Shown in pieces: positions 522-37,064 of a stretch of DNA of 37,064 bases. Within the stretch, counting starts at the first letter, position 1, and each line of letters begins with the position of its first letter. This stretch comes from an uncultured Actinomycetes bacterium (GTDB taxonomy: Bacteria; Actinomycetota; Actinomycetes; Mycobacteriales; Nakamurellaceae), in NCBI GenBank assembly GCA_937926105.1, contig CALANS010000037.1, positions 1-37,064 on the forward strand, given 5' to 3'. The position numbers were made by a program, and so were the translations under genes. The notes beneath the pieces were generated by a model that was given only the letters and a program-made list of their open reading frames with translations, did no database searches and had not been told where the DNA came from.

Positions 522-558
522 GTGCGCCATCAGGGACTCGAACCCCGAACCCGCTGAT
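522..558. repeat. attL core (37 bp)
   Basis: Identical to 37011-37047. It corresponds, on the minus strand, to the tRNA-Lys 3' half: 3' side of the anticodon stem, T arm and acceptor 3' strand. To its right the sequence diverges from the tRNA (ACAGG instead of TAAGA), so this is the orphan partial copy. On the plus strand the core also encodes the peptide CAIRDSNPEPAD in the repressor frame. Confidence 0.95.
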
Positions 559-696
559 ACAGGTTCGCCGCAGGTCAGGGCACGGCTGTTCCTCGTGCCC
601 GATCTCCCTGAGCACGTCAACGCCGAGCCCAACGCGCCCGTGATCCCCATCGGCGCGCCGGCCGTCAACCCTGACGCCGAGCCCACAGCGGCGTAG
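559..696 (+). other. stranded 3' segment of the repressor gene (viral-form C-terminus)
   Basis: This 138-bp stretch continues, in the same frame across the att core, the repressor reading frame from the right end of the prophage. It adds 45 residues and TAG at 694-696. The added tail is rich in Pro and Ala and ends DAEPTAA, an AA terminus like ssrA-type degradation tags. In the prophage it lies 36 kb from the rest of the gene and has no start codon that makes sense, so it is silent. In the circular genome it would be fused to 36739-37047. Its stop is 9 nt before the integrase start, consistent with a repressor-integrase operon in the circle. Confidence 0.85.
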
Positions 697-705
697 GCGC
701 TCACG

Positions 706-1542
706 GTGCCGAGCGTTGTCCCGATTCATCGGTATATGACACCGAACCGATGGAAAGAACCGCTCACCGGCTGGCGCGCATGGCTGAAGTCCGGCGCCGT
801 CAGCAATCAGACCCTCGTCCTGCGTATGTACCAGCTCCGACGTTTCGCCGGTGACCACGCACAGCGATCTCCGTACAGCCTCACGCCCGACGACCTCGGC
901 GCGTGGCTCGCTGCGCAGGAATGGGGCGCTGAGTCGCTTCGCTCCTACCGCGCCGCGCTGCGCAGCTTCTACGGATGGGCGCACGCCGCCGGGCACACCG
1001 ACACCGACCCGGCGCGGCTCCTCCGGAAGATCAAGCCCGGCGCAGCTCGACCGCGGCCCGCTCCGGAGATCGCGATCGACCAAGCACTCGCCGAAGCCGA
1101 CGAACGCACATGGCTGCTGCTCATGCTCGGCAGCCGCGAGGGACTGCGCCGCGGCGAGATGGCTCGCATCCATTCCGATGACGTCGTGCGAGACGGTACC
1201 GGCTGGTCACTCATCGTGCACGGCAAGGGTGGCAAGGACCGAATGGTCCCGCTTCTGCCGACCGTCGCCACCGCGCTCCGGGCACGGCCGCGTGGTTGGA
1301 CCTTCCCGAACGGAAAGGGCGGTCCGATCACCTCGGCGCATGCCGGCGTGCTCATCCGGCGCGTGCTGCACGGCGCGACCGCGCACCAGCTGCGGCACCG
1401 ATTCGCCTCGACGGCCTACCAGGCGACGACCGATATTCGCGCTGTGCAGGAACTCCTCGGTCACGCGTCGGTGGCCACGACCCAGCGATACACCGCCGTG
1501 GCGGACGGTGCTCTCCGGCGGGTCATGCAGACAGCCGCGTGA
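706..1542 (+). CDS. int: tyrosine recombinase integrase
   Basis: A 278-residue phage integrase that would recombine attP with the tRNA-Lys attB. The N-terminal SAM-like core-binding domain is about residues 15-95 and the catalytic domain about 125-275. Visible catalytic residues are R148 in EGLRRGE, K177 in GKGGKDR, H227 and R230 in HQLRH, H253 in LLGH and Y262 in TTQRYTAV. The start is GTG at 706, without a clear Shine-Dalgarno. An ATG lies 10 codons further in. The protein ends MQTAA, an ssrA-like AA terminus, the same last three residues as the viral form of the repressor. It sits 147 bp from attL. In the circular genome it follows the repressor immediately and probably depends on that promoter. 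Confidence 0.96.
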   Translation: MPSVVPIHRYMTPNRWKEPLTGWRAWLKSGAVSNQTLVLRMYQLRRFAGDHAQRSPYSLTPDDLGAWLAAQEWGAESLRSYRAALRSFYGWAHAAGHTDTDPARLLRKIKPGAARPRPAPEIAIDQALAEADERTWLLLMLGSREGLRRGEMARIHSDDVVRDGTGWSLIVHGKGGKDRMVPLLPTVATALRARPRGWTFPNGKGGPITSAHAGVLIRRVLHGATAHQLRHRFASTAYQATTDIRAVQELLGHASVATTQRYTAVADGALRRVMQTAA

Positions 1543-2959: not shown

Positions 2960-3029
2960 GGTGTTCTCCTTGCTGACGGGGTGATGGTGTCGGGGCAGCC
3001 GTGGAAATATGCCGGGAAATATGCCGGCG

Positions 3030-3242
3030 CTACGGGGTCTTCGTGGGGCGGTTGGCGACGGCGAGTCCGTGGCCGCCGATGCCGGCGAGACCGAGGATCC
3101 AGATGACGATGTCCTTGACGGTGGCCAGGTCGGCGGCGCCGACCGCGACGAGCACGGCCAGCACGGCGAGAGTGAGGACAACCAGGAGCAGCGCGACCAC
3201 GTAGACGATGGTGCGCGCCCGGTCGGGCAGGTTCAGGTTCAT
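3030..3242 (-). CDS. holin
   Basis: A 70-residue protein with two hydrophobic stretches: YVVALLLVVLTLAVLAVLVAVGA (about residues 14-36) and VKDIVIWILGLAGIGGHGLAV, with a charged N-terminus and a short basic tail (NRPTKTP). Size, two membrane segments and position directly after the endolysin fit a class II-like phage holin that permeabilises the membrane to release the amidase. ATG at 3242 overlaps the endolysin stop as ATGA, so translation is coupled. AAGAAGGGA upstream may serve as the ribosome site. Confidence 0.85.
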   Translation of the reverse strand: MNLNLPDRARTIVYVVALLLVVLTLAVLAVLVAVGAADLATVKDIVIWILGLAGIGGHGLAVANRPTKTP

Positions 3243-32696: not shown

Positions 32697-33163
32697 CACC
32701 GATCACCCGCCTCGAGTGCGAGCAACTGCCGCGGCATCTCGCCGGCCACGATCGCCCGCTCTACCGCCGGCAGGATGTGCTCGGCGACCGTGGCGCCGTC
32801 CGGCATCACCGTGTACGGCAGGAACTCCTGCTCGAACGTGGTGATTCCGGTCTCGATCACGTCGAGCTTCGCTTTGATCGCCAGCGTCAGCGATCGCCAC
32901 CGGCGGCGCACTTCGGCCTCCATCGCCTTCGTTGCTTCCGGCTGCTTGCGGCGTCTCCCGCCAGGCGAGACGGTGAACCCCTCCCAGTCGGTCGGCACCT
33001 CCAGGTTGAAGCGGATCGTGCGGCTGTGCGCGATGAACGTGACGAACGCGCTCTCGCCATCCCAGCCGGTCGCGAAGCTCCCCGCGCCGTACTTGCGGAT
33101 CAGACCGGCTATCTCCATCTGGGAGCGCTCCGGCGTGACCGTGGTGCCCTCTGCGTACGCCAT
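32696..33163 (-). CDS. conserved actinophage early protein of unknown function
   Basis: A 155-residue protein of a type I recognise from many actinobacterial prophages: AYAEGTTVTPERSQMEIAGL, YGAGSFATGWDGESAFVTFI, HSRTIRFNLEVP, RRRWRSLTLAIKAKLDVIET, FEQEFLPYTVMPDGATVAEH. The function is unknown, and the position among replication-type genes suggests DNA metabolism. ATG 33163 is in TGATG overlap with the upstream gene. Confidence 0.82.
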   Translation of the reverse strand: MAYAEGTTVTPERSQMEIAGLIRKYGAGSFATGWDGESAFVTFIAHSRTIRFNLEVPTDWEGFTVSPGGRRRKQPEATKAMEAEVRRRWRSLTLAIKAKLDVIETGITTFEQEFLPYTVMPDGATVAEHILPAVERAIVAGEMPRQLLALEAGDR

Positions 33164-33477
33164 CACGCCACCGCCTCGGCCAGGGCGGTCAGCACAGCGC
33201 GGGCCTGACTCGTGAGGAACTCGCGCTCGGCATCGGTGATCGACTGCCACTCGGATTCGGTCACACTGTCCGGCTCGTCGTATTCGGAGGCATGCAGCGC
33301 CCGCGCCACAGCCTCCACCTGCCGCGCGTCGTCCGGGTTGGGGCGGACGGTGGCGAGAGTGGCAGACAGCCAGCGGTCGAACGCGGCGCGCGCTTCATCA
33401 ACCGCTGTCGACTCAGCGATAAGGGCATTGACGTACTGAACGCGCACGTACTCCGTCGGCGGCGTGTAGGTGCTCAT
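33163..33477 (-). CDS. hypothetical early protein
   Basis: A 104-residue helical protein (PPTEYVRVQYVNALIAESTA; AAFDRWLSATLATVRPNPDD; DAEREFLTSQARAVLTALAE). ATG 33477 overlaps the upstream stop as ATGA. No recognised domain. Confidence 0.7.
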   Translation of the reverse strand: MSTYTPPTEYVRVQYVNALIAESTAVDEARAAFDRWLSATLATVRPNPDDARQVEAVARALHASEYDEPDSVTESEWQSITDAEREFLTSQARAVLTALAEAVA

Positions 33478-33701
33478 GCGGCGGCGCTCCTGTGGCCGGC
33501 GGCGCGCAGGGCGCGGTGCCGGCGGCGTAGCTCGCCGTCTTCGTCCGGGATCGGTCCGAGGGGCCGGGCGCCGATCCACCGGGTGCGCTCCATGGCGGTG
33601 TTGTGCGCCGTCTGGTAGGCGGCGTAGGTGCCGAGGGCGATCGCGACGACGGCCTGCACCGCGTAGGGGATCGCCGCGGCGATGATCTGCGTGGTGGTCA
33701 C
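33474..33701 (-). CDS. small membrane protein
   Basis: A 75-residue protein with one membrane helix (AIPYAVQAVVAIALGTYAAY) and an Arg-rich cytoplasmic tail. GTG 33701 overlaps the clamp-like gene stop (GTGA). Function unknown. It could affect the envelope during infection. Confidence 0.7.
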   Translation of the reverse strand: MTTTQIIAAAIPYAVQAVVAIALGTYAAYQTAHNTAMERTRWIGARPLGPIPDEDGELRRRHRALRAAGHRSAAA

Positions 33702-34507
33702 GACTCGTCACCGCCGTCGAGGTCGATCGTGAGCGTGGTCAGATCGACCGGCGCGTCGGTCTCTTTGGTTTCGGGTGCGCCGGTGTTGGGCGGGTCGGGT
33801 GGCAGCTCCGGGAGCACAGAGGACAGGGAGCCGAAGCTATCGAGCCATCCGCGCCGCGACGTGTCCCACCAGTCTTCGTCCGCGCCGGTGACCTGCCGGC
33901 ACATCAGAGCGCCGACGAACGACTCGCCGCAGGACACCACGACCGCCCGGGCGCCGGCTACTGGTTCGGCGAGTAGCTCCCACTCGAAGGCGCGGGTCGC
34001 GGCGGTGAATCGGGCCATGTAGTCGCCGGGCATCGGCAGCTGGGACGCTGGGGCGCGGTTTCGCCACAGGCCGGCCAGGATGGTGGGCACGTCCGGCCAG
34101 CGCGGATGCGGGGTCGCGGGCACGATCGTGAGTGACGTGCCCGGAAACAGGCCGCTGACATCTGTTACCGTGAGCGCCTTCTCGGTGACGTCGAGGCGCA
34201 CGACCGGGTTGTCGTCCTTGTTCGCCGGCCGGAACACCTTCAAAAGCAGCCGGGCCATCTCCGGGTACAGGTCGAAGCAGCCGAGGACTTGCGGGCGGTC
34301 CACCAGGTGCACGCCTGCCAGCGCCATGGTGAAGCGGTCGGTTGCGCCGACGTGCACGCCGGCCGCGGTGACGAACACGCGCAGCCGGGCGAGATCCGGC
34401 GTCACCTTCGCATCGGCCACGTGCGGCAAAGTTGACAGCAACGCCCCGCGGAGTGATCGGAGTTTCGCCGAGAACTGGAAGTCCACAAGCGTTTTCGTCT
34501 TAGCCAC
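33698..34507 (-). CDS. DnaN-like sliding-clamp family protein
   Basis: A 269-residue protein. The central segments (RLRVFVTAAGVHVGATDRFT, ALAGVHLVDRPQVLGCFDLY, DVTEKALTVTDVSGLFPGTS) show the beta-clamp pattern with G-x-x-x-G-A-T-D-R-x-x-x-A as in DnaN. It is shorter than bacterial clamps (about 370-400 residues). The C-terminal part is Pro/Asp-rich (PELPPDPPNTGAPETKETDA). It may recruit host polymerase or block the host clamp. GTG 34507 overlaps the previous stop; the extra upstream frame has no ribosome site. Confidence 0.78.
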   Translation of the reverse strand: MAKTKTLVDFQFSAKLRSLRGALLSTLPHVADAKVTPDLARLRVFVTAAGVHVGATDRFTMALAGVHLVDRPQVLGCFDLYPEMARLLLKVFRPANKDDNPVVRLDVTEKALTVTDVSGLFPGTSLTIVPATPHPRWPDVPTILAGLWRNRAPASQLPMPGDYMARFTAATRAFEWELLAEPVAGARAVVVSCGESFVGALMCRQVTGADEDWWDTSRRGWLDSFGSLSSVLPELPPDPPNTGAPETKETDAPVDLTTLTIDLDGGDES

Positions 34508-34862
34508 GGCTATCGACCACCCATCCGACGATGAACAGGAACAGAGCAAACGACACGATCCCGATACCGACCGAGGCGCCGAGGAACACCGCGAACGGGA
34601 TCCCGATCGCGAACGTGAGCGCGAACGCCGCGGAGATCAGCACCACGCCGAGGTGCCGGCGCCACGCACGCCGCGCCGGCCGGGGCCAGGCGTCAGCGGT
34701 CGGCGGGGTGATGACGATCATGTTGGGCGGCACGTCGAAGATCCGGGCGAGCCGCTCAACGATCAAGGCGTGCTGCGTGCACCACGGGCAGATGCAGCCC
34801 GGCCGGTAGTCGTGCCGCTCAAGGAACACACGCCCGGCACGGGTGCGAGGGTGCGGGCTCAT
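34500..34862 (-). CDS. membrane protein with N-terminal Cys motif
   Basis: A 120-residue protein: a soluble N-terminal part with CICPWCTQH (possible zinc site), basic linker WPRPARRAWRRH, then two membrane helices (LGVVLISAAFALTFAIGIPF; GASVGIGIVSFALFLFIVGW). ATG 34862 overlaps the upstream stop as ATGA. Function unknown. Confidence 0.75.
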   Translation of the reverse strand: MSPHPRTRAGRVFLERHDYRPGCICPWCTQHALIVERLARIFDVPPNMIVITPPTADAWPRPARRAWRRHLGVVLISAAFALTFAIGIPFAVFLGASVGIGIVSFALFLFIVGWVVDSRG

Positions 34863-35860
34863 CGAGGCTCACCCGCCTCGGCGCGGTAATCCGACACGAG
34901 ACGGTGCAGCTCGGCGGCGATCGAGTCCACGACCGCGCCGGCCCCGATCATCCGCAACTCGGCGGCGCCCACAGGAAGGCGGCGGATCACGTCGCCGATC
35001 AGGTCCGACAGCCCGTAGGCCGCGAGCTGCAGCCGGTGCCAGCGCCCCGCCGGCGTGTCCGGGGCGGGGATCTCCGTGCGCCCCGGCTCCGGTGAGGCGT
35101 GACGCGCCGCCGGGCCACGCCCCACCGGGGCCTCGTCCGCGCCCGGTACGCCGGCCCCCGCCGGCACACCATCGGACGGCGCGACGTCCGACAGTTCCTC
35201 ACCGAACGCGAAAGACTCCAAGGTGCCGTCCGGCACGGCGCGGGGAGAGTCGTCCCGCGCCGTGTCGGAGGCGTCTCCTACAGTCGCCTCATCCCGGGTG
35301 TGTCCAGCACCCGGCGCAACCGAAGGAGAGTCACTATGGGTGAAGCCGCGGACATCGCGCGGGGAGCCATGCCCCTCAGCGCCCGGGTCTACAACACCAC
35401 GCAGCCAGGGCCGCAGACGTACCAAGACCTCGGAAACGCGATCCTTAAGCTCGTCCGGGCGGTCGAGAACCTCGACGAGCGACTCCACCGCATCGAGCGT
35501 GTCGTGAGCCGATAGCTGCCGCTCAATCACCGCGGGGCCGTGCAGCACGCACGACGGGTTGTAGACACCGGCCAGCGACAGTGGCTCGAACGTCAGACAC
35601 GAACAGCGCGGGTCACTCGCCGGCAGATCGACGTCCAGACCTAGGTCGGTCAATGATTCGACCGAGGTGCGAACGACGCCGCGGATCCGGTCAAGCGCGT
35701 CGGCCGCGGCGATGAACGTGCGCGCGGCCGGGCCGTGGACGCGCTCCGCCCAGTCCCGCCAATCCATCAGCTCGTCGTCGCCCTCTACGGGCTCGTCCGT
35801 GCCGCAGTCGTCGGCGCCCAGCGCCCACGCGAGCCGGCGCCACTCCTGCACGTCGCTCAT
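34859..35860 (-). CDS. large hypothetical early protein with disordered middle
   Basis: A 333-residue protein. The N-terminal part has helices and a Cys-containing segment (DVDLPASDPRCSCLTFEPLS; YNPSCVLHGPAVIERQLS), the middle (about 160-270) is low-complexity Asp/Pro/Gly, and the C-terminal part is helical (WHRLQLAAYGLSDLIGDVIR; VVDSIAAELHRLVSDYRAE). ATG 35860 overlaps the upstream stop as ATGA. The middle overlaps a candidate gene on the other strand (35336-35515). No family recognised. Confidence 0.75.
   Translation of the reverse strand: MSDVQEWRRLAWALGADDCGTDEPVEGDDELMDWRDWAERVHGPAARTFIAAADALDRIRGVVRTSVESLTDLGLDVDLPASDPRCSCLTFEPLSLAGVYNPSCVLHGPAVIERQLSAHDTLDAVESLVEVLDRPDELKDRVSEVLVRLRPWLRGVVDPGAEGHGSPRDVRGFTHSDSPSVAPGAGHTRDEATVGDASDTARDDSPRAVPDGTLESFAFGEELSDVAPSDGVPAGAGVPGADEAPVGRGPAARHASPEPGRTEIPAPDTPAGRWHRLQLAAYGLSDLIGDVIRRLPVGAAELRMIGAGAVVDSIAAELHRLVSDYRAEAGEPR
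35336..35515 (+). CDS. candidate antisense small protein within the 34859-35860 gene
   Basis: ATG 35336 is preceded by GAAGGAGAGTCACT, one of the best Shine-Dalgarno sites in the window, and opens 59 residues with a sensible composition: MGEAADIARGAMPLSARVYN, then YQDLGNAILKLVRAVENLDE and RLHRIERVVSR, a likely coiled-coil helix. It is opposite the low-complexity middle of the leftward gene, so the two could coexist. Against it: no other rightward gene nearby and no evident promoter. It could be chance. Confidence 0.35.
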   Translation: MGEAADIARGAMPLSARVYNTTQPGPQTYQDLGNAILKLVRAVENLDERLHRIERVVSR

Positions 35861-36057
35861 GCGGACACCGCCCGGGACACGGTCCGGGGCCGGCGGGTCG
35901 GCCGCACCCGGGAGCCATCGACCCGGCGCACCGCGGTGCAGCCGAGGCACTTCTCGATCACGGGTGCTCCCGGCCGCCACGGCCGGTGATGCACCCACCG
36001 GATCGCCGTGCACGTATCGTCGTGCATCGCCGCCGGGCGCCACACCGGGCCCGTCAT
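35857..36057 (-). CDS. small zinc-finger-like protein
   Basis: A 66-residue protein with H-x-x-x-C and C-x-x-C spaced by about 25 residues (MHDDTCTAIRWVHHRPW; VIEKCLGCTAVRRVDGSRVR) and a basic tail. ATG 36057 overlaps the previous stop as ATGA. Possibly DNA-binding, function unknown. Confidence 0.72.
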   Translation of the reverse strand: MTGPVWRPAAMHDDTCTAIRWVHHRPWRPGAPVIEKCLGCTAVRRVDGSRVRPTRRPRTVSRAVSA

Positions 36058-36377
36058 CGCGTCACCGCCGGCGCCCACAGCTGCGCGCACTCGGTGACGA
36101 ACGCGACCACATCGGCGCGGCGCGGCGCGCGCGGCATCTCGCGAACCACGAGGCCGTCTGGGCCGTCGAGCCACGCCTGATAGCCGGTCCAGATGGCGTC
36201 GTTCTTCGGCCACCAGGTGTCACGGATCTCGACCCGGAAGTCGCCGGCGCGGACGGTCGCGCCGTAGTTCGCCCGGTTCACGACGTCCACGCTGCCGCGG
36301 GGCAGCTCGTGGACTTCGACGACGTGACCGGCAGCGTGCAGCGCCTCGGCCAGCCGATCCCACCGCGGGCTACTCAC
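36054..36377 (-). CDS. hypothetical protein, first after cro
   Basis: A 107-residue protein: SSPRWDRLAEALHAAGHVVE, YGATVRAGDFRVEIRDTWWP, WTGYQAWLDGPDGLVVREMP. The alpha/beta pattern shows no known family. It is the second gene of the leftward early operon and coupled to cro by GTGA (start 36377). In temperate phages this position often holds excisionase or another early regulator, but I see no winged-helix pattern here. Confidence 0.72.
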   Translation of the reverse strand: MSSPRWDRLAEALHAAGHVVEVHELPRGSVDVVNRANYGATVRAGDFRVEIRDTWWPKNDAIWTGYQAWLDGPDGLVVREMPRAPRRADVVAFVTECAQLWAPAVTR

Positions 36378-36625
36378 GACGCCACCGACCGATTCGCTGG
36401 TGGTTCGGCGAGTAGTTCCGACGTTGAGATGCCGAGTACTTCCGCGATGGTCGCGAGTTCGCCAGCCGTAATGGGCACTTGCCCCAGTAGCCGCCGCGAT
36501 ACTGCCGCGCCACTCACTCCCAACCGGTCCGCAAGCGCGGCACGCGATACGCGGCGTCTCGCGACCTCCGCGCGGACCTGATCAGCCACGCGCGTCGTGT
36601 TCGATGTAACGGAATGCGTTCTCAT
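36374..36625 (-). CDS. Cro-like helix-turn-helix regulator
   Basis: An 83-residue protein with an XRE-type HTH at about 26-50 (VSRAALADRLGVSGAAVSRR) followed by ITAGELATIAEVLGISTSEL. First gene of the leftward lytic operon, divergent from the repressor, as Cro is in BPs-like and lambdoid phages. ATG 36625 is preferred over the upstream ATG at 36661, since that would put the operator and promoter inside the gene. No ribosome site precedes it, and the predicted transcription start lies only 1 nt upstream, so the mRNA is probably leaderless. Confidence 0.85.
   Translation of the reverse strand: MRTHSVTSNTTRVADQVRAEVARRRVSRAALADRLGVSGAAVSRRLLGQVPITAGELATIAEVLGISTSELLAEPPANRSVAS
36606..36622. promoter_or_regulatory. 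imperfect second operator inside the start of cro
   Basis: GTAACG-N5-CGTTCT carries the same AACG-N5-CGTT core as the perfect operator at 36635-36655, 29 bp centre to centre. It lies in codons 2-7 of cro. Confidence 0.4.
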
Positions 36626-36632
36626 GTCCGCA

Positions 36633-36661
36633 ACTGTGAACGCTTTCCGTTCACATGTCAA
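36633..36661 (-). promoter_or_regulatory. leftward early (cro) promoter
   Basis: Perfect -35 TTGACA at 36661-36656, 17-bp spacer, weak -10 CACAGT at 36638-36633 (keeps the A2 and T6 positions). The expected start of transcription is about 36626, next to the cro ATG at 36625. The operator inverted repeat fills the spacer. Confidence 0.65.
36635..36655. promoter_or_regulatory. immunity operator (perfect inverted repeat)
   Basis: TGTGAACG (36635-36642), 5-nt spacer CTTTC, CGTTCACA (36648-36655): perfect 8-bp arms with 13-bp centre spacing, suited to a dimeric HTH repressor. It occupies exactly the space between -35 and -10 of the leftward promoter, so binding would shut the lytic operon. Confidence 0.8.
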
Positions 36662-36700
36662 GCCAGACGGAGACTTCTATCCATTCAATTTCTCAAGGTG

Positions 36701-36729
36701 GGTTCCACTGTCACGCATAGCGTGATAAT
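36701..36729 (+). promoter_or_regulatory. rightward repressor promoter, probable leaderless transcript
   Basis: GATAAT at 36724-36729 is a strong -10. The -35 is weak (around GGTTCC, 36701-36706, 17-bp spacer). The predicted start of transcription (about 36736-36739) coincides with the repressor ATG at 36739, and there is no ribosome site, so translation is likely leaderless. Confidence 0.6.
36711..36725. promoter_or_regulatory. inverted repeat at the repressor promoter
   Basis: TCACGC-ATA-GCGTGA, perfect 6-bp arms, abutting the -10 of the repressor promoter. Half-sites differ from the cro operator, so it may bind Cro or be an autoregulatory site. Confidence 0.5.
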
Positions 36730-36738
36730 CTTCGCTCC

Positions 36739-37050
36739 ATGACAGCATCACTGAAGTTGGTCCAGGGCACACCGGGACGGGCAGATGACGTCGCGCGGCG
36801 CCTCCGCGAACAGATCGCAGGGCGACGCATTAACGCCTACGAAATTGCACTGCGTCTTGGCGTGTCACACATGTGGATATCGCGGCGCACCACGGGGCAG
36901 ACGGAACTCAACGTTTCCGACCTCGACCGAATCGAGTACGCGACGGGCATCTCGGCGAACTACCTGTTCACGGGCACCGGCTCGCCTGGAGTGCCGATCG
37001 GCCCGGACGGGTGCGCCATCAGGGACTCGAACCCCGAACCCGCTGATTAA
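36739..37050 (+). CDS. rep: immunity repressor, integrated (truncated) form
   Basis: A 103-residue protein with an XRE-type HTH at about 31-55 (INAYEIALRLGVSHMWISRR) and a following NVSDLDRIEYATGISANYLF helix pair. Residues 92-103 (CAIRDSNPEPAD) are encoded by the att core, and the TAA at 37048-37050 is the first codon past the core, supplied by host tRNA sequence. In the circular phage the frame would go on through 559-696 to make 148 residues. It is divergent from cro, and its start is set by the leaderless promoter. The short form should be the active, stable repressor of the lysogen by analogy with BPs-type phages. Confidence 0.85.
   Translation: MTASLKLVQGTPGRADDVARRLREQIAGRRINAYEIALRLGVSHMWISRRTTGQTELNVSDLDRIEYATGISANYLFTGTGSPGVPIGPDGCAIRDSNPEPAD
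37011..37047. repeat. attR core (37 bp)
   Basis: Identical to 522-558. It joins the prophage end to host DNA so that the tRNA-Lys gene is kept whole: the 5' part to the right is host, the 3' part is core. It also encodes the last 12 residues of the repressor on the plus strand. Confidence 0.95.
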
Positions 37051-37064
37051 GAGTCAGCTGCTCT
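37012..37064 (-). tRNA. tRNA-Lys(CTT), 3' part (continues beyond the window)
   Basis: The minus strand reads AGAGCAG, anticodon arm CTGA-CTCTTAA-TCAG with anticodon CTT, variable region, T arm GGGTTCGAGTCCC-like stem-loop, acceptor 3' strand ATGGCGC and discriminator A at 37012. CCA is not encoded. About 53 of some 73 nt are inside the window. The prophage core begins in the 3' side of the anticodon loop. Confidence 0.92.

Follow-up and report, generated by a model that had tools for sequence, protein, structure and literature searches.

The insertion site of the prophage in the window (the whole stretch of 37,064 nucleotides analysed here) lies within the repressor gene that the prophage itself carries, so that integration swaps a 45-codon tail of that gene for a stop codon. 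We hold it highly probable, judging from the sequence, that this turns a predicted, likely unstable 148-residue repressor into a stable 103-residue one, which would likely give immunity. The feature is real and its mechanism very likely integration-dependent immunity; the tail removed by insertion is likely a destruction tag, the loss of which would turn immunity on.

The ends of the prophage are marked by a 36-mer with two exact copies in the window (0 expected in shuffles), which comparison extends to an identical 37-bp att core at both ends. The features found there are the following.

522..558, no strand: attL core, 37 bp (exact-copy search and comparison)
559..696, plus strand: displaced repressor tail, 45 codons ending -DAEPTAA, then TAG (frame translation)
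36739..37050, plus strand: short form of the repressor, as encoded in the prophage, an HTH protein of 103 aa (4.4e-16 to phrog_2328, transcriptional repressor, over residues 14-103; tblastn)
37011..37047, no strand: attR core, 37 bp, the 3' part of the host tRNA-Lys(CTT) (exact-copy search, comparison and ARAGORN)
37048..37050, plus strand: host-supplied TAA stop, the complement of tRNA nucleotides 36-38 (the last two anticodon bases and the next A)
37009..37064, minus strand: host tRNA-Lys(CTT), the portion within the window of a gene that reaches 37085 (ARAGORN on the extended locus L002)

Both cores were located within one repressor phase, as the earlier note had claimed, and the attP core lies inside the repressor frame. 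At attR the frame runs from ATG 36739 to TAA 37048-37050, the codon next to the core, and encodes 103 aa. At attL the same phase, when re-read, gives CAIRDSNPEPAD and then 45 codons (559-693) up to TAG 694-696, with the integrase GTG at 706 following 9 nt later. The lengths and spacing proposed earlier are thus borne out, the predicted 148 codons of the joined attP frame being the sum of 103 and 45. The proposal that integration swaps the repressor C-terminus stands as far as a change at integration is concerned; the change is a truncation, since all that the host contributes is a stop codon, without any further residue. Read from the sequence, the long form ends in -PTAA and the short form in -EPAD.

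ARAGORN found zero tRNA genes in the window alone. Once IMG/VR DNA past the window end was added, it returned an intact tRNA-Lys(CTT) gene of 77 nt on the minus strand (37009-37085), the host site that the earlier note had named; its 3' part is the core, which restores the gene at attR. The truncating TAA lies in this host gene. Because it is the complement of the last two bases of the lysine anticodon and the next A, the identity of the host tRNA helps to secure truncation: a lysine tRNA yields TAA in the core frame of the window while those three bases stand. Beyond the window end, the rest of tRNA-Lys(CTT) is followed by tRNA-His and then an oligoribonuclease gene. The oligoribonuclease has 90% identity to a JGI protein and 69-75% to proteins of named actinobacteria among the 120 matches listed, and its DNA reaches at most 79% identity in 401 genomes sampled from the larger family of G002; we take the host to be an actinobacterium. 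No empty attB was found among 14 of 20 neighbouring loci, which had no tRNA-Lys near (13 of them had tRNA-His). The IMG/VR provirus record of this element, G000, begins at window position 736, 30 nt inside the integrase. It thus lacks attL together with the repressor tail and the first bases of the integrase gene, while its far end takes in about 1.9 kb of host DNA. Automatic provirus boundaries would therefore hide such a switch.

In tblastn, the window repressor matched 140 phage records, annotated immunity repressors among them. The best matches were PhrostedPhlake gp44 (43.8%) and Gudmit gp36 (41.8%), then Butters, Charlie and others at 34.6% (to residue 103), the Charlie match covering residues 4-103; the nearest full-length relative, P0006, has 49% identity. 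An AlphaFold model from seven sequences had a mean pLDDT of 70, with helices within residues 14-81. Since residues 82-98 fall below 50, the core-coded end of the repressor looks like a flexible appendage in this model.

Directly downstream of the displaced tail lies the integrase, with an -AA end of its own.

706..1542, plus strand: tyrosine integrase, 278 aa, GTG start, ending -QTAA (Phage_integrase, 1.4e-20)

Residues R148, K174, H227, R230, H253 and Y262, which we take to be the catalytic residues, are invariant across 10 aligned relatives. SallySpecial is nearest (47.9%), followed by other small Gordonia phages, and among the matches listed 59 of 120 integrase relatives end in -AA. As for the remaining genes, PHROGs recognised terminase, portal, head, tape measure and minor tail proteins among the ten large frames between the cores, four of which had no match; Pfam gave zero matches for ten flank and accessory frames, and a search of solved structures one weak match (4ich, E 0.0052). 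A scan of IMG/VR with the window repressor alone confirmed no near relative, which would suit a decayed prophage that keeps the arrangement of a working ancestor and has lost the switching. We find such decay improbable: the cores are identical over 37 bp, and the frames for repressor, integrase, terminase, portal, head, tape measure and minor tail are all open and recognisable.

Upstream of the repressor, the control region holds a divergent gene and two palindromes.

36374..36661, minus strand: divergent HTH gene, Cro-like by position (HTH_3, 2.2e-07, above cut-off; ORF from TTG, with an ATG at 36625)
36635..36655, no strand: perfect palindrome TGTGAACG-N5-CGTTCACA, possible operator (1 match in the window, 0.10 expected)
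36711..36725, no strand: second palindrome TCACGC-ATA-GCGTGA, possible operator, adjoining GATAAT at 36724-36729 (seen by eye)

The Cro role is assigned by position. The first palindrome has a 76% direct copy at 36608-36628; near matches to the second are not above chance in the window (5 vs 5.97 expected). Both palindromes lie between the repressor and the divergent HTH gene and may be operators. A promoter scan of the control region found none. The GATAAT picked out by eye lies ten bases before the repressor ATG, so the repressor mRNA would be nearly leaderless.

These parts would work together as follows. In the excised circle, the 148-codon repressor gene and the integrase would form one operon, and host proteolysis of -AA ends would hold both proteins low, so that most infections would stay lytic. 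When integrase acts, the tail would be cut away and the short repressor would accumulate, bind operators around 36608-36725 and shut the divergent lytic promoter; the integrase would then be stranded about 36 kb from its promoter. Present in the sequence itself are the two 37-bp cores, the one frame, the host TAA, the -PTAA tail, the integrase -QTAA end and the divergent HTH gene. The logic of BPs, Brujita and Charlie, which the earlier note had invoked, is the best fit, and the window repressor is related in sequence to that of Charlie.

The integration-dependent design is already known in related phages, and the window adds a further case. The earlier note had left open whether this lineage has been described; according to the accessible parts of PMC5559632, the system and its 37-bp tRNA-Lys attP are known in Gordonia cluster CW, where attP lies within repressors of the integration-dependent type and GMA5, GRU3, Jeanie and McGonagall have an identical 37-bp attP matching G. 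terrae tRNA-Lys. In our searches 14 phage records held the complete 36-bp core, those of 7 Gordonia phages, some of which appear twice, and of one unannotated Bacteriophage sp.; Coeur and Rahul (3 records) shared 34 of its 36 bases. The same core lies inside annotated repressors of Gordonia phages. As the base before the 36-mer is G in 15/15 copies compared, the 37-bp core is also the same. The window thus agrees letter for letter in its core with the CW phages GMA5, GRU3, Jeanie, McGonagall, SallySpecial, Emperor and EricDab, which also have the nearest named integrases (up to 47.9%) and, in those read, the same core frame. However, integrase identity stays under 50%, the repressors are only distantly alike, and the listed CW genomes measure 15.9-17.7 kb vs 36.5 kb for the window element.

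The likeness of the repressor points elsewhere. Charlie and Butters (cluster N) and the Gordonia phage PhrostedPhlake share repressor homology that includes the core-coded end (34.6% and 43.8%), and they too have the attP region in the repressor and the same core frame. Their core sequence differs from that of the window, hence another tRNA. The tails of Charlie and PhrostedPhlake end in -AA like that of the window, unlike the Butters tail (-VA). On sequence comparison the element is therefore a mosaic, which combines a CW-like integrase and att core with a Charlie/PhrostedPhlake-like (cluster N-like) repressor. Across the rest of its length, a near-mode search of the phage collection gave no named-phage match for 700-25000, and for 14000-37000 the sole match was 65 bp of Arthrobacter phage Richie (two records). 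A sensitive search with 33000-37064 matched 278 records, and the best 15 of the 278 were all at the att/tRNA end.

The same logic has been tested at the bench in BPs (cluster G), where, by the accessible text of PMC4557955, the 103-aa short form (gp33-103) is active and the 136-aa long form (gp33-136) is degraded. Unlike in the window, the core of BPs and Angel is read in another frame, in which the host makes a Cys codon a stop (PMC9262239), and their tail ends in -DKAS. The Mycobacterium abscessus prophages (MabB, MabK and others) likewise have attP in the repressor, a host-made stop and -AA tags on some of their repressors and integrases, although their hosts, clusters and att sites are others and some of them are without -AA (PMC8092301).

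How far the -AA tail recurs was seen first among carriers of the core. IMG/VR held 13 contigs with the exact core: in seven, two of which (L020 and L022) have one common tail, the core lies in a repressor frame that runs past it, and 7/7 of these frames end in -AA; in four the frame ends at the core (in one because the contig ends there), and two are plain tRNA-Lys genes. As a measure of chance, of 8210 frames of 9-60 codons drawn at random from the window, 163 have such an end (2.0%). The idea that the core-sharing repressors are unrelated families was rejected: phrog_2328 matched all ten of the frames given to it, which makes them distant relatives. In one contig, L016 (minus strand), two cores lie 77 bp apart (3011-3046 and 3088-3123) with the same tail, ELLSLVTAA, after each, a tandem duplication of the att-tail unit.

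A wider tail test took 179 loci with a related integrase, the window being outside this set. An antisense tRNA T-arm motif was found within 1.5 kb upstream in 71 of them (65 distinct). Counting the readings that stop before the integrase body, -AA ends occurred in 15 of 62 in frame 0 (the frame of the window), 1 of 60 in frame 1 and 18 of 61 in frame 2, as against 158 of 5644 random readings. Frames 0 and 2 exceed the random share by a wide margin and frame 1 does not; this counts against a tail without any role that leaves both repressor forms working alike, as do the -AA end of the integrase and the BPs precedent (PMC4557955, accessible text). Overlaps of att sites and genes are common, and several relatives have tails that do not end in -AA (Angel and Barebow -AS, UmaThurman -PA, Butters -VA, P0006 -EAR); the two-residue end is a weak motif as evidence. 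Even so, we judge a tail without function very unlikely. Alternatively, the tail might be a regulatory domain, the two forms differing in binding or activation and not in stability, and a stabilised long form does modestly raise Prep activity; yet the BPs forms bind DNA similarly (both in the accessible text of PMC4557955), and the tails of exact-core contigs vary from 9 to 45 codons after the core and keep a common -AA end. A regulatory domain of this kind seems to us likewise very unlikely, and a destruction tag remains the likely reading of the tail.

Within the -AA frame, 32 of 34 loci had a stop no more than 8 codons from the T loop, vs 21.0 expected for a random frame, the 8-codon limit having been fixed after the table of stops was seen. 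The tRNA genes of Rhodococcus aetherivorans (G001) and the two of the window host served as stand-ins for those of the true hosts, a weakness of the test, with match scores down to 24/33 and some doubtful isotype calls. These counts suggest that -AA tails are nearly confined to two of the core frames, those where a stop follows early in the antisense tRNA. That one core can be read in two frames has already been reported (PMC9934374); in the accessible parts of the literature on such phages, we found no mention of a link between core frame and stop supply. In-frame -AA tails with related integrases and tRNA cores were also seen in genomes of Ornithinimicrobium, Rhodococcus, Brachybacterium, Labedella, Curtobacterium and Corynebacterium (loci that include L032, L046, L048, L050, L056 and L058), which suggests that the switch is widely distributed.

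Transcription of the host tRNA in a lysogen points at the repressor gene and is antisense to it, with the divergent HTH gene further along the same path. The 60 nt before the core were therefore folded in the tRNA sense, and a first survey showed strong hairpins in many loci. The set then analysed comprised 37 repressor genes, one from the window, 17 from named phages and 19 from unnamed loci hand-picked for an open upstream frame (L022, L141 and L144 were excluded as duplicates or near-duplicates). Perfect stems of 9 bp or longer, G-U pairs included, around a loop of 3-8 nt occurred in 24 of the 37 genes and, as a control, in 4 of 102 windows taken from other parts of these genes. With synonymous-codon shuffles, the stem had p < 0.05 in 20/37 genes vs 3/102 controls, and the folding energy in 23/37 vs 17/102; folding energy is a weak test, as its controls also exceed 5%, and we place the weight on stem length and covariation. 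Twelve of the 37 genes, 10 of them with a stem, came from 14 phages chosen after the idea arose, some being close kin of earlier phages; JustASigh (no T-arm motif in its repressor) and Nadezda (no annotated repressor) among these 14 were left out. Clustering at 70% identity reduced the 37 genes to 29 clusters, 18 of which have such a stem.

The eight bases after the 24 stems contain a mean of 3.41 T in the tRNA sense vs 1.50 in the repressor sense, and four or more T follow in 9 cases vs 1; with 9 of 24, fewer than half of the stems have a classic U-run. Across seven linkers from cluster CW, 98/98 pair cells are paired, vs 36-54% in slid controls, each linker being cut at its own best stem, which favours pairing. 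Four of the 14 pairs are changed on both sides, and one pair occurs in four forms; in either arm these paired changes also replace amino acids (GHAPSPDGDGAC vs GEAPSPDGDGAS). We conclude that the hairpin is selected as nucleic acid in the cluster CW group, and we infer that it would end host tRNA transcription. Stems fall short of 9 bp in Angel, Paito, Charlie, Butters, nine other loci and the window. A hairpin in the window too was considered and rejected, as its linker folds no better than shuffles (z -0.37 and -0.45), and no terminator-like site was found in window 36360-37064. Among the loci, perfect linker hairpins of 13-18 bp, placed as a terminator of the host tRNA gene would be, were observed in L005, L007, L016, L018, L021, L046, L132, L154 and L157, and in L260-L264, L266 and L268-L270.

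A tRNA terminator in a repressor gene was not found in titles and abstracts; the founding paper on integration-dependent immunity, Broussard 2013, lies outside this search, so that an earlier description may exist. None of the main texts of PMC5559632, PMC9262239, PMC8092301 and PMC9934374 contains the words terminator, hairpin, stem-loop or inverted repeat, the main text of PMC4557955 has one hairpin, which is unrelated, and the accessible parts of PMC8022706 and PMC9635641 hold no statement on a tRNA terminator in the repressor.

Altogether, we lean towards a repressor gene that carries host-tRNA functions on its other strand, with a frame limited by antisense stops and a linker that would double as tRNA terminator in many members. 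The prophage would displace the tRNA's own terminator, and the linker hairpin would replace it on the opposite strand; without it, tRNA transcripts would cross the repressor antisense into the divergent lytic genes. On this reading the window, which follows the frame rule and has no such hairpin, would have lost the terminator or never acquired it. What could be new is the frame rule together with the overprinted terminator, both of them traits of the family more than of the window.

The accessible parts of PMC4557955 and PMC9635641 propose integration-dependent immunity as a lysis-lysogeny switch that is simple and may be ancestral; to this the window adds a mosaic case, a 36.5-kb phage without a close named relative. 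The comparisons suggest that one short stretch may serve as repressor C-terminus, integrase site, tRNA 3' end, stop source and, often, tRNA terminator. Such overlapping constraints make a compact and testable case, and they would explain the recurring PDGDG-like linker peptide, which protein function alone leaves unexplained.
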